DNA from: Gloeobacter morelensis MG652769
GTDB lineage: Bacteria > Cyanobacteriota > Cyanobacteriia > Gloeobacterales > Gloeobacteraceae
Length of the DNA stretch: 64,000 bases
Direction: 5' to 3'
Assembly (NCBI RefSeq): GCF_021018745.1
Contig: NZ_CP063845.1
Location: forward strand, 992,001 to 1,056,000
Part shown: positions 56,794-62,631 of the stretch, piece after piece
Layout of the letters: every line of letters begins with the position of its first letter
Position numbering within the stretch: the first letter of the stretch is position 1
Program-made: the position numbers and the translations under genes
Notes under the pieces: model-generated
Database searches by the model: none
The model's input: the letters and a program-made list of their open reading frames with translations, nothing else
What the model was told of the DNA's origin: nothing

Positions 56794-57201
56794 CTCCCGA
56801 CCATCGAGAAAGCGCAATGATCATGGACATCCTCGCCGACTAAGGGCGATCGGCTTTCTCCCGCCACTCAAGTAACCAGCTATTGGAAATAGCCAGTCCC
56901 TTACCGACTTGTGGGAAGTCGTACCAACTGGCAGTCATCGTGTAAAAGGAGGCAATTTCCCCTGGACTTGCAAGACCGACCCTGTTTGTTTCCAAGAGTA
57001 ACAACTATCTATAGTTTGATTTCTCGATCGGCATATTTTTCAGGAAATAAGTATACAGGATAGATGAAAGCACCGGTGCACCCGTTCTGCCCTTAGCTCG
57101 GCGCGGCAGACAGGGATCAATCGCAACAAAGTTTAGCACCTGAGTTTGAATGAATCCCTTTCGGCCTCTGTTGGAGCTTTTTTCTAACAGGAGATATGCC
57201 C
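56794..57201 (+). promoter_or_regulatory. Upstream region of the caspase-like gene
   Basis: About 400 nt without a gene. AT-rich around 57000-57070. It ends with AGGAG 8 nt before the chosen start at 57202. No stem-loop or repeat stands out; the promoter of the next gene must be here. Confidence 0.4.
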
Positions 57202-59361
57202 ATGGCTGACATCAAAGCCCTGGTCGTTGCCATCAACGACTACCCGGGTACGACCAACGATTTGCCCAGTTGTCTGGAGGATGCGAGAAAATTTATCGAA
57301 GTGCTGAAATCCCCATCCTACGGGCTTCGCACTCAACAGTTGCGCACGCTGTACGACGCTGAAGCCACGATCAAAAATGTCACCGATGGCCTGGACTGGT
57401 TGTTGAGTGGTGTGAGCCGTTCCGCCAACGGCAAGCAGGACGCGCGCCGGATCTTGTATTTTAGCGGGCACGGTTTTCGAACCGAACTAGAAGGCATTTT
57501 GCGCGAGTGCCTGTGCCTGTACGACGGCTTTTTCTTCGATCAGCAACTGAGCGCCAAAACCCAGGGATTGCCGCCCGGGGTGCTCACAGTCATCCTGGAC
57601 AGTTGTCATTCCGGCGGCATGGAGAAGCCATTTTTGCTGGTGGTGCCCACCGACGAGACCGAAGAGCGCACCCGCAACAAAGTCTGGATTCCGGAGGATC
57701 TTTCCAAAGAGATCGCCGTGGAGCTGGATCAAACCGCCAGTTTGCCCTTCAAAGCTTTTGGCGGTCCGGTCGAACCGCCCCTGGCCGCCTCCAAAGCGGG
57801 CTCCATGCGGTTGATGGCCCTGGAAGCCATTGCCCAGCAGAAGGCGGATGCGCCGCGGGTCAACGGCCTGGTGCTCACCGCCTGCCGGGCAGATCAGACC
57901 GCCGCTGCCAGCACCTCGCGCACCCAGGGTATGTCCGCCTTCACCTACGGGATCGTCACCGCTCTGGCCAAGGTGGGCCAGTCGCTGCCCTCCTACGATC
58001 GCTTGTCCAACGCCCGCCTGTTGCAGGCGGTTGCGGCGGAACTGTCCACGCTCAACTTCCAACAGACCCCGCAGGTCAAAGAACCCGACACTCCCCGGGA
58101 TTTGGGTTCCTACACCTTTATCACGCTGCAGCCGATGGGTTCGGATGTCATCTCACCGACCCAGCCCACCGTACCCGCCGCCGGTTCGAGCAGTTGGCTC
58201 ACCAGCCTGTGGGCGATGCTGCGCGGCACGACCGGTAAATCCTTTGCAGGAGAACAGACCATGGTTTCTTCGATGAGCACGTGGACGATCACCAAATCGC
58301 AGCTGGAGACAAACGCGGTCGAGGAGAAATTTTTCGGCTCCGTACTGCGCACTGCGGTACGCCTCGCCCCGGTGATTGCCAATGTCGTTAGCCAACTGAA
58401 CAAGGACTACCAGCCGGACGGTTCGACCCAGCAGCAGGAAAAATTCCTGGGTGCCCTCATCGGCATCGGCAGCAGCGTGATTCCCTATATTCCGAGGATC
58501 ATCCGGGCTTTGCGCAAGGACTTCGAGGTCGATGCGTCGCCGGAAGCCGATGAGAAATTCCTGGGTGCGGCGTTGCGCATGGCGATCCATCTGGCTCCAA
58601 CCGTTTCGCAGATCATCGAAGGTCTGCGAAAAGACTACCAACCCGACGGCAGCGGCACACCCGAGGGTGAAGAGAAGTTCGTTGGAGCTGTTCTGCAGAC
58701 AGCCCTGACAATCTCTCCCACCCTTTCGAACCTGCTAGAAAGGCTGCGCCAGGATCTGCGCAAAGATTACGAACCGGCCGCCTCCGAAGAAGACGAGCAG
58801 AAATTCTTCGGTGCCGTGCTGCGGGCGGGCCTCCAACTGGCGCCGGCCATCGCCGGTATGGTCCAGGCTCTAGGCAAAGACTTCCAGATAGGAGAGTCCG
58901 AACAGACCGACGAAAAGTTCTTCGGCGCGCTGCTGCGGGTGATCCGGCAGGTCGCTCCGGTGGTTGGTGAGATTGTCCAGGAACTGCGCAAGGACTATCA
59001 GATCGACAAGGCTGTGGTTGATGAGGAGGTCGAGGAGAAATTCTTCGGCTCGGTGCTGCGCGCCGCGGTGCGCCTCGCCCCGATGATCGTCAATGTCGTT
59101 AGCCAACTGAACAAGGACTTCCAGCCGGACGGTACCTCCCAGCAGCAGGAAAAATTCCTCAGTGCCCTTGTCGCGGCGGTCACCACCATTGCCCCGGCGA
59201 TCCCCGACATCATCCAGGCGTTCCGCAAAGACTTCGAAGCCGACGGCACAGCCGCAAAGCTCTTGAGCGAGCAGGTCTCCAACGGGCATGGACGCAAACT
59301 CCCGATCCCGGTGTCGCGCGCATCCTCCCATGAGCTACCGGTGGGAGCAGGGATGGGCTGA
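57202..59361 (+). CDS. Caspase-like protease with eight C-terminal helical repeats
   Basis: The ATG at 57202 has AGGAG at a good spacing (8 nt); an ATG six bases earlier is too close. The 719-residue protein has a caspase/C14-type domain (residues about 1-310): 'IKALVVAINDYPGT', catalytic H90 in 'ILYFSGHGFRTE' and C135 in 'VILDSCHSGGM'. After a linker, eight repeats of about 39 residues fill 374-688, with consensus 'EKFFGALLRxAxxLAPxIxxIVQxLRKDYQxDG'. Amphipathic helices of this type may stack or bind a membrane. No signal or membrane span. Metacaspase-like proteins act in stress death or defence; function here is open. It is followed by MazEF. Confidence 0.88.
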   Translation: MADIKALVVAINDYPGTTNDLPSCLEDARKFIEVLKSPSYGLRTQQLRTLYDAEATIKNVTDGLDWLLSGVSRSANGKQDARRILYFSGHGFRTELEGILRECLCLYDGFFFDQQLSAKTQGLPPGVLTVILDSCHSGGMEKPFLLVVPTDETEERTRNKVWIPEDLSKEIAVELDQTASLPFKAFGGPVEPPLAASKAGSMRLMALEAIAQQKADAPRVNGLVLTACRADQTAAASTSRTQGMSAFTYGIVTALAKVGQSLPSYDRLSNARLLQAVAAELSTLNFQQTPQVKEPDTPRDLGSYTFITLQPMGSDVISPTQPTVPAAGSSSWLTSLWAMLRGTTGKSFAGEQTMVSSMSTWTITKSQLETNAVEEKFFGSVLRTAVRLAPVIANVVSQLNKDYQPDGSTQQQEKFLGALIGIGSSVIPYIPRIIRALRKDFEVDASPEADEKFLGAALRMAIHLAPTVSQIIEGLRKDYQPDGSGTPEGEEKFVGAVLQTALTISPTLSNLLERLRQDLRKDYEPAASEEDEQKFFGAVLRAGLQLAPAIAGMVQALGKDFQIGESEQTDEKFFGALLRVIRQVAPVVGEIVQELRKDYQIDKAVVDEEVEEKFFGSVLRAAVRLAPMIVNVVSQLNKDFQPDGTSQQQEKFLSALVAAVTTIAPAIPDIIQAFRKDFEADGTAAKLLSEQVSNGHGRKLPIPVSRASSHELPVGAGMG

Positions 59362-59492
59362 GGCGCCGATAGTTGCAAATTGGCGGTACCCACAGCCCTG
59401 GCGGTCGTGGGTACCGCATTCTCGTCCTCCTGAGGATATGAATAGAGGGATATACTATGGATATCCTGATGCCAAGTGTGTGGGAGGAAAGT

Positions 59493-59732
59493 TTGAAGTC
59501 GCAAGTTGCCCGCTGGGGGAATTCGCTCGCTTTTCGCATTCCCAAGCAGATCGCGATCCAGCTCGATCTCAAGCCAAGCACTACGCTCGTATGCAGTGTA
59601 GAAGCCGGGGCCTTGGTTGTCAGGCCTGTGCGGGAGGTCAAAGAGTACAGCCTTGAGGAGTTGCTTACCGGCCCGACTGAAGTCGAAGACGAGGTCGATT
59701 GGGGCAAACCCGAAGGCAAAGAAGCTTGGTAG
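59493..59732 (+). CDS. mazE: Antitoxin MazE (AbrB-like)
   Basis: GGGAGG (59482-59487) 5 nt before a TTG gives the standard MazE start 'KSQVARWGNSLAFRIPKQIAIQLDL'; the 79-residue product continues to an acidic tail ('EELLTGPTEVEDEVDWGKPEG') that would wrap the toxin. A longer start at 59457 is possible. The N-terminal SpoVT/AbrB domain binds DNA and represses its own operon, as with other MazE proteins. It overlaps mazF by 7 nt. Note the acidic tail has 'VDWG', typical of the neutralising end. Confidence 0.9.
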   Translation: MKSQVARWGNSLAFRIPKQIAIQLDLKPSTTLVCSVEAGALVVRPVREVKEYSLEELLTGPTEVEDEVDWGKPEGKEAW

Positions 59733-60061
59733 AGTACGTTCCCCAGCGTGGGGAGTTCATTTGGCTTAGTTTTGATCCACAGGCCGGGCACGAGCAACTG
59801 GGGGTTAGGCCTGCCTTAGTGGTCAGCCATACCCTATTCAACGAGAGGCTTGGCTTTGTTTTCGTTTGTCCTGTCAGCAACACGAGGCGCAAGAATGCGT
59901 TCTACGTACTTATCCCCGAAGGACAGGCAGTAACGGGTGTAATCATGGCCGATCAACTGCGCTCCCTCGATTACCGAGCCCGGCGGGCAGCTGCGATCGG
60001 CTTATGCCCCGAGGAACTGTTGAGCGAGGTGCTGCGCAAAATTCAACCGATTCTTTTTTGA
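59726..60061 (+). CDS. mazF: Toxin MazF endoribonuclease
   Basis: The TTG at 59726 gives the normal start 'VEYVPQRGEFIWLSFDPQAGHEQLGVRPALVVS' and 111 residues. The core 'FVFVCPVSNTRRKNAFYVLIP' and 'VIMADQLRSLDYRAR' are typical of MazF; the toxin cleaves mRNA or tRNA at a short sequence that cannot be read from the protein. The 'RG-x-x-W' element and the Arg of 'GVRPALV' that usually sit in the active site are present, so it should be active. Start overlaps mazE by 7 nt. The stop falls just before the left end of the TnpB element. Confidence 0.9.
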   Translation: MVEYVPQRGEFIWLSFDPQAGHEQLGVRPALVVSHTLFNERLGFVFVCPVSNTRRKNAFYVLIPEGQAVTGVIMADQLRSLDYRARRAAAIGLCPEELLSEVLRKIQPILF

Positions 60062-60067
60062 CAGTAA

Positions 60068-61347
60068 CGGGCTTTAGCCCGCCGCAAGTCACGGAACTTC
60101 AGTCCCAGTGGTGAGGCGTTTTTCAGCTTTAGCTACTGTTCTGTCCTGTCAACATGGCCTACATTTGTGTTATAATAGCCAGCAATAAAATCAATAGTTT
60201 CTGATGCTCAAGACCTTCCAGTACCGGCTCTATCCATCGAAGACGCAGGCTAGAAGTCTTCAGGCGATGGTCGAGACATGCCGCAGGTTCTACAACCTGT
60301 GCCTGGAAGAGCGCAAGATAGCCTATCAGCTTCAGGGCCAGACTATCACTAAAGTCCAACAGCTTCGCCGGGTCAAAGAATACAGAAAATCCAATCCCTA
60401 CGCTGCCAGTGTCCACAGCCACGTACTCCAGGTAGTAGTGGCAGACCTGGACAAGGCTTTCCAGGCATTCTTCCGGCGAGTGAAAGCAGGCCAGACGCCT
60501 GGCTACCCCAGGTTCAAGGGCCGTAACCGCTTTCGTTCCTTTGGCTTCAAAGAACTCGGCAATGGCTTCAAAATCGATGGTCGTCGCCTGAAACTGTTCG
60601 GCGTTGGCCGGGTGGCTATGCGTTGGCATCGGCCTTTTGAGGGCAGCATCAAAACCGCTCGTATCAGTCATAAGGCTGGCGAATGGTTTGCATCCTTGGC
60701 CTGTGAAGTGCAGACTGCTGTACCACCAGCTACAGGCCAAGAAGTTGGAGTAGACCTGGGCATCAACAGCTTGCTTGTTACCAGCGATGGTGAGCACATC
60801 GAAAATCCCCGCTGGTATCGGGCTGAGCAAGCCAAGCTCAGAGTGCTTCAGCGTTCAGTGGCCAGAAAGAAAAAGGGTGGCACTCACCGAAAAAAAGCAG
60901 TGTGGGTGCTCCAAAAGCAGCACGCTCGGATAGCCAATCGCAGAAAAGACTTCCTCAACAAAGTGGCGTATCGCCTGATAGGCAGGTACGACCGCATTGC
61001 GATAGAAGACCTGCGCATCAACAACCTGGTGCGCAACCAACACCTGGCTAAGAGCATCCTGGATGCTGGGTGGGGATACCTCACGCAACGACTCACGCAT
61101 GCGGCTGGAAGTGCTCATCGCGTGGTCCGTCTGGTTAACCCTGCCTACACCTCCAAGACTTGCTCGTGCTGCGGTGCCCTGTTCGAGCATCTCACCCTTG
61201 GCGATCGGTGGATGGAGTGTCCTTGTGGTTTGTCGATGGACCGCGATGAGAACGCAGCCAGGAATATTCTGAGGCTCGGACAGAGCCTTTGGGGGCTAAG
61301 CTCGGCACCAGCCGGGTTTCCCCAAGAAGCCGTCGGGCTTTAGCCCG
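60068..61347 (+). mobile_element. IS605-type element carrying only tnpB
   Basis: Both ends show the same hairpin sequence CGGGCTTTAGCCCG (60068-60081 on the left, 61334-61347 on the right), enclosing a tnpB gene with no tnpA. Such hairpin ends and lack of terminal inverted repeats fit IS200/IS605-group elements moved by a TnpA elsewhere in the genome. The right hairpin runs over the tnpB stop codon. True cleavage ends may lie a few tens of bases outside the hairpins. The left end lies about 7 nt after mazF; the right end is next to the Clp N-domain gene. Confidence 0.78.
60204..61343 (+). CDS. tnpB: RNA-guided nuclease TnpB (IS605 OrfB)
   Basis: The 379-residue protein has the OrfB start 'MLKTFQYRLYPSKTQ', the RuvC motifs D184 ('VGVDLGINSLL'), E268 ('IAIEDLRINNL') and D346/D348 ('SMDRDENAARNIL'), and a zinc finger 'TCSCCG...CPCG' between them. 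TnpB proteins are RNA-guided DNA nucleases, ancestors of Cas12, whose guide is encoded by the end of the gene and the right end of the element. All key residues are intact. The rest of the element is at about 60068-61347; the last codons overlap the right-end hairpin. Confidence 0.92.
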   Translation: MLKTFQYRLYPSKTQARSLQAMVETCRRFYNLCLEERKIAYQLQGQTITKVQQLRRVKEYRKSNPYAASVHSHVLQVVVADLDKAFQAFFRRVKAGQTPGYPRFKGRNRFRSFGFKELGNGFKIDGRRLKLFGVGRVAMRWHRPFEGSIKTARISHKAGEWFASLACEVQTAVPPATGQEVGVDLGINSLLVTSDGEHIENPRWYRAEQAKLRVLQRSVARKKKGGTHRKKAVWVLQKQHARIANRRKDFLNKVAYRLIGRYDRIAIEDLRINNLVRNQHLAKSILDAGWGYLTQRLTHAAGSAHRVVRLVNPAYTSKTCSCCGALFEHLTLGDRWMECPCGLSMDRDENAARNILRLGQSLWGLSSAPAGFPQEAVGL

Positions 61348-61359
61348 TGCGGAGTGTCA

Positions 61360-61830
61360 CTACAAGGTCTGAGCCTGCCTCACCAGCAGTTCATTCAGCC
61401 GACTGTTGAGATCCTTCATATCCACTCCAAGCGCTTCAAGCACGGCACAGACATTCGATGTCTCGGTGTAGATCAAGCCTGCCAAAAGGTGCTCCGGGTA
61501 AAGTTTCTCAGAAGCGAAACGGGTAGCCTCAACCCCGGCCTGCTTGAAAGCAATTTGTGCATCCTTTTCGAAGAAATATTCCGTTCCCCAGCCGAACGGT
61601 GCCCAACCGAGACGGGTTCGGCCACGACCGGCAAGTCTTGCCACTTGAAGGCGGGCAGGCCATAGCTCCGCCCCTACTCCATGCAACAGTTTGGCTACTT
61701 TGCCCTGGCTATGGCGCATCAGGGCAAGTAGAAGATGTTCAGACCCGACAGCGGACTGACCAAGGCGACGGGCCTCAGCAACCGCCAGAAAAAGTATCCA
61801 GATTGTTCTTTCAGAAAAACGATCGAACAT
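61360..61830 (-). CDS. Stand-alone Clp N-domain protein
   Basis: The 156-residue protein consists of a double Clp repeat: 'FLAVAEARRLGQSAVGSEHLLLALMRHSQGKVAKLLHG' and 'AGVEATRFASEKLYPEHLLAGLIYTETSNVCAVLEALGVDMKDL', as in the N-domain of ClpA/ClpC, without any AAA+ ATPase part. Such proteins (for example ClpS-like or ClpT in plants) bind Clp complexes or adaptors. The stop is 12 nt from the right hairpin of the TnpB element, so an insertion may have changed the 3' end. Next gene is a Uma2 protein 21 nt away on the same strand. Confidence 0.85.
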   Translation of the reverse strand: MFDRFSERTIWILFLAVAEARRLGQSAVGSEHLLLALMRHSQGKVAKLLHGVGAELWPARLQVARLAGRGRTRLGWAPFGWGTEYFFEKDAQIAFKQAGVEATRFASEKLYPEHLLAGLIYTETSNVCAVLEALGVDMKDLNSRLNELLVRQAQTL

Positions 61831-61851
61831 TGATTATTCTCTCAATGCAGA

Positions 61852-62631
61852 TTACCGCAATGCTTCGATGCCATGGAGCTTATCCGGATCGAGGCCCTGC
61901 GCGCGCAGGGCCTCGGCTAAAATTTCGGCCCGTCGCCGTTTGCGGTCGAGTTGTTGTTCGGCTTGACCGAGTTGTTGTTCAACTTGCTTGAGCCGCGCGG
62001 CGGTAGAACGCAACTCGGCAGCCAGTTCACTGGGAATCAGCAGCTTTTCGCCCGTGTCGAGCCGGTAAAAATTCACCAAGGCCCCTTCGGCTACCAGCCT
62101 CAGCCCCAACACCGCGCTGAGGCCGCCCACAATCGGGGTGTAAACCATCTGGGGCAGATCCGGATCCGCCAGGGTTGGGGTGAGGCGGTAACCGAGCAGC
62201 GGTTCGGCCAACCACTCGCCCTTCGGATCGAAAAGCCAGTACTCGCCGACGCCCAGTTGCTCGTACAGCGCCTTTTTGATGCCCTGATCCTGTGCACGGG
62301 TGGCAGCAGAGGTGATCTCGAAGACGACCGAGGGCACCCGGCCTTCTTCCCAGATCTTGTAATTGTCCCTGCCGCCGGGCTCTACACCGAAGATGACCAT
62401 TACGTCAGGAACTACCCGGGCTGTGGGGATCCCCGGTGCGTAATAAAGAAACTGGTGGGCGAGCACCGTCGCCTGTTGGCCTTCAAGATACTGCCTTAGC
62501 ACTTCGAGGATGACCAGGATTGCGTAGAGGTGCGCAAAGGTTTCGGCCACGGGCGTACCGTCCCCGCTCGGGTAGGTGACAGGTTCGAGGGCACGAGTCA
62601 TGGGCGACTTTAGGCGAGTCTTTGCTGCCAT
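61852..62631 (-). CDS. Uma2 family endonuclease-like protein (DUF820)
   Basis: The 259-residue protein has the PD-(D/E)xK-like core of cyanobacterial Uma2 proteins: 'RVVPDVMVIFGVEPGGRDNYKIWEEGRVPSVVFEITSAATRAQDQGIKKALYEQLGVGEYWLFDP', with D in 'VPDVMV', E in 'VFEI' and K in 'IKKALY'. The C-terminal 60 residues are coiled coil (ARLKQVEQQLGQAEQQLDRKRRR). The family is hugely expanded in cyanobacteria; role unknown and possibly linked to mobile DNA. An ATG at 62601 is an alternative start. Confidence 0.88.
   Translation of the reverse strand: MAAKTRLKSPMTRALEPVTYPSGDGTPVAETFAHLYAILVILEVLRQYLEGQQATVLAHQFLYYAPGIPTARVVPDVMVIFGVEPGGRDNYKIWEEGRVPSVVFEITSAATRAQDQGIKKALYEQLGVGEYWLFDPKGEWLAEPLLGYRLTPTLADPDLPQMVYTPIVGGLSAVLGLRLVAEGALVNFYRLDTGEKLLIPSELAAELRSTAARLKQVEQQLGQAEQQLDRKRRRAEILAEALRAQGLDPDKLHGIEALR

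Follow-up and report, generated by a model that had tools for sequence, protein, structure and literature searches.

A metacaspase-type protease and a tandem array of amphipathic helices, fused or in adjacent genes, point to an undescribed two-part module in cyanobacteria and proteobacteria

The 64,000-nucleotide stretch of DNA analyzed (the window) was placed in contig 1 (4,921,229 bp) of a Gloeobacter genome and carries a gene for a protein in which a caspase/metacaspase-type protease domain is followed by a linker, eight repeats and a short tail (aa 1-312, 313-374 and 375-686 for the first three parts; Table 1). Another in-frame ATG is located two codons 5' of the 57202 start, at 57196. Genes of the MazE and MazF/PemK types follow, and between mazF and the next shared gene (60204-62631) the window holds an IS605 OrfB/TnpB-like gene, a Clp_N protein gene and a Uma2 nuclease gene, all three of which are missing from the G. 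violaceus-like locus L155.

Table 1. Positions of the protease-array gene, its residues and repeats, and its neighbors in the window, followed by genes at related loci (L numbers, in the coordinates of those loci).
Feature	Position	Strand	Evidence or remark
Caspase-helix-array protein CDS, 719 aa	57202..59361	+	ORF; G001 ortholog; dN/dS 0.23 over gene
Caspase/metacaspase-type protease domain, aa 1-312, p20-like and p10-like halves	57202..58137	+	PF00656; metacaspase-9 alignment
Asp27, equivalent of TbMCA2 Asp95, S1 pocket	57280..57282	+	Invariant; pocket per PMC4357240
Ser88, equivalent of TbMCA2 Ser156, S1 pocket	57463..57465	+	Invariant; PMC4357240, PMC7206013
Catalytic His90	57469..57471	+	SGHG motif; invariant in 11 relatives
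Asp133, equivalent of TbMCA2 Asp211/AtMC4 Asp137, S1 pocket	57598..57600	+	Invariant
Catalytic Cys135	57604..57606	+	DSCHSG motif; invariant in 11 relatives
Lys142, replacing Ca2+-site Asp (TbMCA2 Asp220)	57625..57627	+	Invariant Lys in subfamily; opposite Asp in AtMC4
Linker, aa 313-374, least constrained part	58138..58323	+	dN/dS 0.45
Repeat 1, aa 375-412	58324..58437	+	Repeat alignment, profile
Repeat 2, aa 413-450	58438..58551	+	Repeat alignment, profile
Repeat 3, aa 451-490	58552..58671	+	Repeat alignment, profile
Repeat 4, aa 491-532, with 4-aa insertion	58672..58797	+	Repeat alignment
Repeat 5, aa 533-570	58798..58911	+	Repeat alignment, profile
Repeat 6, aa 571-611	58912..59034	+	Repeat alignment, profile
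Repeat 7, aa 612-649, DNA 90% identical to repeat 1	59035..59148	+	Repeat alignment, profile
Repeat 8, aa 650-686	59149..59259	+	Repeat alignment, profile
MazE-type antitoxin gene, directly downstream	59457..59732	+	PF04014, E 3e-8
MazF/PemK-type toxin gene	59699..60061	+	PF02452, E 2.5e-26
11-unit array, 54-aa units	L149 6962-8890		Rhizobial plasmid
16-unit array, 54-aa units	L164 9962-12700		Rhizobial plasmid
8-unit array, 54-aa units	L165 9962-11404		Rhizobial plasmid
Peptidoglycan hydrolase genes near split modules	L148 8624-9163; L154 11349-11867; L150 9089-9877

The protease domain matched Pfam Peptidase_C14 (PF00656) at aa 5-295 (E 1.7e-24; 87.3 bits against a cut-off of 21.4), and this match, together with the SGHG and DSCHSG motifs, bears out a sequence-only reading of the gene, which had described a C14-type domain with an intact His90/Cys135 pair. 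The subfamily profile aligned over nearly its full length to metacaspase-9, and in this profile alignment the C-terminal half of the domain lay against the p10 part of metacaspase-9, a part that orthocaspases in the strict sense (p20 only) lack. The EACC1-associated caspase family of NCBIfam (NF047832) scored 34.5 bits, far below its curated cut-off of 140. The S1 pocket of TbMCA2 is formed by Cys92, Asp95, Ser156 and Asp211 (PMC4357240), which correspond to C24, D27, S88 and D133 in the Gloeobacter protein; the Cys92 position is C24 in the clade described below and Ser in two plasmid members. Basic residues are the cleavage sites of orthocaspases (PMC5756287), and AtMC4 holds a lysine (Lys225) in the same pocket before cutting there (PMC7206013). 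As judged by residue correspondence, the clade protease has retained the acidic S1 residues with which metacaspases accept Lys/Arg, and Lys/Arg cleavage is predicted. The premise that Ca2+ would activate the protease, on which an assay had been suggested, appears weak: the Asp220 position of TbMCA2, one of the four aspartates of the Ca2+ site, holds an invariant lysine (Lys142), and Ca2+ dependence is therefore doubtful. An assay with Ca2+ alone might overlook activity.

The repeats start at aa 375, 413, 451, 491, 533, 571, 612 and 650, confirming the eight copies that had been placed at residues about 374-688. Successive periods are 38, 38, 40, 42, 38, 41 and 38 residues, such that the 39-residue period proposed earlier describes the average (39.3) but not a fixed length (38-42). 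Five positions (K2, F3, P16, K27 and D28) are invariant in all eight copies. Repeat ends had been read as RKDYQ or RKDFE; K-D indeed occurs in all eight, but no more than five have R-K-D, with N-K-D in two and G-K-D in one. Profiles built from any seven repeats recovered the eighth at E 7e-14 or better, and a repeat HMM made solely from alphaproteobacterial sequences found exactly eight domains with the same starts (E 4e-29 among 6,227 ORFs), scoring the tail at 108.5 bits compared to 7.0 for the best of 1000 shuffles. Divergence at the DNA level placed the copies beyond the reach of Tandem Repeats Finder, with the exception of repeats 1 and 7 (90%).

Searches of the tail against Pfam and NCBIfam returned no credible family match (WD40, TPR, HEAT or others), in keeping with the earlier remark that the repeat belongs to no named family, and no gasdermin domain was matched in fused or split arrays. 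Several candidates were judged to be composition effects: PF21822 in the tail (27.8 against a whole-protein cut-off of 22 over 52 residues, with no single stretch significant), nSTAND1 in the tail (below its cut-off, in repetitive sequence), and, among others, DUF4167, CobS_N and GapR_DNA-bd in 54-aa arrays from related plasmids (at or just above their cut-offs, with no significant stretch). Helical moment was high for most repeats (z of approximately 1.2-2.7 against shuffles of the same residues), which upholds the description of amphipathic helices; a central proline is conserved in them. A high moment would fit membrane binding and, equally, a buried helix face. Mean hydrophobicity is low, and a transmembrane array is not favored. 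AlphaFold predictions of the full protein and of a related array from Roseomonas, each based on 4-6 sequences, reached pLDDT values of 33 and 38; one helix per repeat is readable, and at this quality a solenoid cannot be distinguished from free helices.

Relatives were sought in 84,980 genomes using tandem EKFxG codons, with matches read in frame. The same fused architecture is present in Bradyrhizobium (L088, 668 aa with eight EKFWG repeats; L119; L113). In Roseomonas aerilata (L096), a caspase (331 aa) and an eight-repeat protein (387 aa) are encoded by separate adjacent genes, the array gene having its own start codon and a purine-rich stretch upstream. A five-member caspase profile found L135, L146, L136/L149, L137/L138 and L147 (Acetobacteraceae) blind to the array; L146 is the Bradyrhizobium quebecense chromosome, with repeats of the form KDWIDD..SKGYQANG. 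A plasmid protein search added Sinorhizobium meliloti, B. quebecense, B. barranii, B. septentrionale and Paraburkholderia sabiae, and an 11-member profile found, again blind, another cyanobacterium (G144) whose EKFWG repeats are interrupted by an assembly gap. All of the blind-found members L135, L146, L147, L137/138 and L149 have an adjacent helical partner, as does L162, found with the 11-row profile. In every neighborhood that was read, the gene after the caspase encodes a repetitive helical protein that carries no annotation beyond hypothetical. Overall, 14 of 14 loci have a helical array, fused or as the next gene, although in L154 there is only a short weak match: the partner there is a short protein (161 aa) with no clear tandem array, and it is the least convincing of the set.

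Hosts of the clade comprise Gloeobacter, another cyanobacterium, Bradyrhizobium, Sinorhizobium, Paraburkholderia and Acetobacteraceae. The module has a sparse, patchy distribution: in evenly drawn samples, members were detected in 4 of 262 genomes from the class to which the window belongs (3 being Gloeobacter) and in 1 of 385 genomes of the Bradyrhizobium class, and profile searches detected no member among 229 genomes of Gammaproteobacteria and 198 of Actinomycetota, with one partial 99-bit match outside the clade. Searching plasmids and phages with the tail (tblastn) gave only tape-measure proteins and low-identity noise, the Roseomonas array had no match in plasmids, and the tandem EKFxG pattern in viral contigs marked only chance or unrelated proteins. 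Viral caspases fell outside the clade and were without an array.

The 14 array-linked caspases scored 339-443 bits with a clade profile that contained 11 of the 14 or near-identical copies of them, while the next best score was 125. An IQ-TREE phylogeny unites them in a single group (ultrafast bootstrap 90, SH-aLRT 97), within which well-supported branches force at least three changes between the fused and split states. Repeats of the split Roseomonas array correspond one for one to those of the fused Bradyrhizobium array (p 0.0006), and a change between fused and split therefore occurred with the array intact. Gloeobacter and alphaproteobacterial repeats show no correspondence in order (p 0.33-0.83) even though all of these arrays have eight, implying that arrays were rebuilt between phyla. 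We accordingly rejected eight as an ancient fixed structure, given the unmatched order and the variable copy number elsewhere (2 to 16 across arrays). Three Bradyrhizobium plasmids illustrate this variability, with a caspase that is identical (0-1 aa difference) beside arrays of 8, 11 or 16 units (Table 1). Units are near-identical in the three plasmid arrays and identical in DNA within the 11-unit array; by sequence comparison, the change in copy number on these rhizobial plasmids is very recent.

Within Gloeobacter, the ortholog in G001 (a 4,659,019-bp genome) keeps all eight repeats at 92% identity, and the full copies preserve one-to-one repeat identity between two species. Between two full copies, dN/dS was 0.16 for the repeats, 0.23 for the caspase and 0.45 for the linker, and the array is therefore under selection. 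The Aphanocapsa lilacina HA4352-LM1 draft has two repeats left, a hybrid of repeats 1 and 7 followed by repeat 8, which could reflect true recombination or an assembly collapse; one further genome in the genus lacks the gene. The G. violaceus ortholog is probably GI 37519663. A list from 2012 enters GI 37519663 as a lone Bac_PepC14 domain (PMC3501461).

Most of the divergent arrays share a K-[D/G]-[Y/F/Q]-[Q/E] box after each amphipathic helix, found in 10 of the 12 array sequences examined in variants such as KDYQP, KDFE, KGYQA, KDQQP, KGQQP, KDNQ and KEYQP, with Glu after Lys in G144. Asp follows Lys/Arg 46 times, compared to 15 expected from composition. The box is shifted or missing in several alphaproteobacterial repeats, and the strict pattern detected none in the Acetobacteraceae array. 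Arrays of S. meliloti, Paraburkholderia and the B. quebecense chromosome escape the EKFxG profile, and so the kinship of these three sets rests on position, helix pattern and box.

Protease and array are thus a lasting pair across cyanobacteria and proteobacteria, as fused or adjacent genes, and the sequences point to an undescribed two-part module in which the helix array is the partner of the protease. At the sequence level, this linkage with exchange between fused and split states shows that the two parts work together, though not in what way. The idea that the tail is the protease's own substrate, raised in the sequence-only reading, was strengthened and appears plausible, because the pair lasts whether fused or split, most arrays carry the box in spite of their divergence elsewhere, and the acidic residues of the S1 pocket do not vary. 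The array may be a dedicated multi-site substrate, in cis or in trans, cut after the box lysine; of the readings considered we favor this one, tentatively, as a proposal slightly more apt to fail than to hold. Freedom in copy number and the box would both favor this substrate reading, and an array length that varies freely at identical caspase would be expected of a peptide store rather than of one fixed fold. Purifying selection and one-to-one conservation in Gloeobacter would fit a folded domain or scaffold equally. We consider it somewhat unlikely that the array is instead an uncut helical scaffold, either a solenoid or a flexible multivalent arm, serving to bring protease molecules together or to recruit targets. 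C-terminal repeat domains are common in other bacterial caspases, WD40, TPR and HEAT tails are thought to serve this way in other orthocaspases, the repeats are more constrained than the caspase by dN/dS, multivalency tolerates changes in copy number, and proteins split from their own scaffold are common. However, a scaffold does not require the Lys beside Asp/Gly that is kept in otherwise dissimilar sequences, no known scaffold family was matched, and no compact AlphaFold fold was obtained, a weak point as it derives from 4-6 sequences only.

Two further possibilities draw on precedents among metacaspases. Box lysines might occupy the S1 pocket as a tethered pseudosubstrate, holding the protease inactive until a signal or an initial cleavage releases it, much as Lys225 is held in the AtMC4 pocket (PMC7206013), and MaOC1 activity needs the p20 domain to be cleaved from the rest of the chain (PMC5756287); however, one site would suffice for this, leaving the 8-16 copies and the array on a separate plasmid gene unexplained, and we regard it as quite improbable. 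In Gloeobacter, the main job of the protease might be control of MazEF, with MazE cut, the toxin halting growth and the array secondary. Both genes lie directly downstream on the same strand, and mazE and mazF also adjoin in L155 and L156 with the MazE frame intact in both, but the MazF frame is broken in L156 (at about 2026-2400 of this 24,992-bp contig from the Aphanocapsa lilacina draft). MaOC1 of Microcystis precedes a toxin-antitoxin pair and cuts its ParD-like antitoxin (PMC7935541), and because of this parallel MazEF is a sound lead, for Gloeobacter only, with MazE a possible second substrate candidate by analogy with MaOC1. The alphaproteobacterial members inspected showed no type II toxin-antitoxin pair, and MazEF control therefore cannot explain the module; as the main job in Gloeobacter we hold it to be very improbable. 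MazE contains ..REVKEYSLEE.., which resembles a K-[D/E]-[Y/F] box and may be chance.

Returning to the array as substrate, we propose that the fused protein would combine a metacaspase-type protease with tandem amphipathic helices, each followed by a box, and that cutting at many sites after the box lysines would free helix-Pro-helix peptides of 38-42 aa. These peptides may act on membranes, a step for which helical moment is the evidence and which we hold with less confidence than cleavage, and through them an activated protease would permeabilize the cell. Lysis could then be finished by a nearby peptidoglycan hydrolase in the versions from rhizobia and Paraburkholderia: GH108 or N-acetylmuramidase genes lie within approximately 5 kb downstream in S. 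meliloti, Bradyrhizobium G879 and Paraburkholderia, in some loci only and with IS elements between. Unlikely in our estimation is the complete scheme, namely a caspase whose substrate is a polyprotein of 2-16 membrane-active helical peptide units, in cis or in the next gene, forming a gasdermin-like module for killing or lysis with short peptides replacing the folded pore protein.

To our knowledge, hardly any natural substrate of a bacterial caspase has been identified, and whether these enzymes have a role in cell death is a matter of dispute. With its lasting, physically linked candidate substrate, this caspase clade would make the substrate question testable with one purified protein. If the proposal is true, this would be a second protease-activated membrane system beside the bacterial gasdermins, with representatives in legume symbionts and in the cyanobacteria that branch earliest; if the array is not a substrate, it is a new helical repeat family accompanying one caspase clade. 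A literature search of papers available without subscription returned no description of these repeats or of the pairing. Metacaspases and orthocaspases (C14B; MaOC1, AtMC4/AtMC9) share the catalytic dyad, the acidic S1 residues and the near-full metacaspase-9 profile match, but no known member has been reported to carry a tandem helix array, either in cis or in trans, and the Ca2+-site Asp is an invariant Lys here. AtMC4 releases a peptide from a precursor, as proposed here, but from one encoded elsewhere, whereas the array is adjacent or fused; the position of MaOC1 beside a toxin-antitoxin pair resembles that of the Gloeobacter gene beside MazEF. Orthocaspases with WD40, TPR or HEAT repeats likewise have a protease followed by a repeat region, but the repeats here, one helix-Pro-helix each, belong to no described family, their copy number ranges between 2 and 16, and the array is in some cases encoded by a gene of its own. 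Bacterial gasdermin operons place a caspase-like protease beside a membrane-acting partner, sometimes with a lysozyme-type gene near (PMC9612521), an arrangement that resembles the protease beside a presumed membrane-acting partner here. However, the partner here has no gasdermin domain and consists of short helices in an array of variable length, and its membrane action is a prediction.

Other genes were observed around the proteobacterial modules. A BTAD/SARP-like regulator lies directly upstream of the caspase in Bradyrhizobium (L088 4322-5227, minus strand; L153 8126-9169, minus strand). Downstream of the module, Bradyrhizobium (L088 1641-2021, minus strand) and Roseomonas (L096 3183-3605, plus strand) share a small conserved Cys-rich protein (50% identity) that had no Pfam or NCBIfam family and ends CPSGIT.C.GSV..CC.DF.VIG....GAWGC. 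On the S. meliloti accessory plasmid, L148 9483-11138 encodes a helical repeat protein rich in leucine (GAGIAGLAPELQQRLIVLVEGLDDP units), the N terminus of which weakly resembles an F-box.
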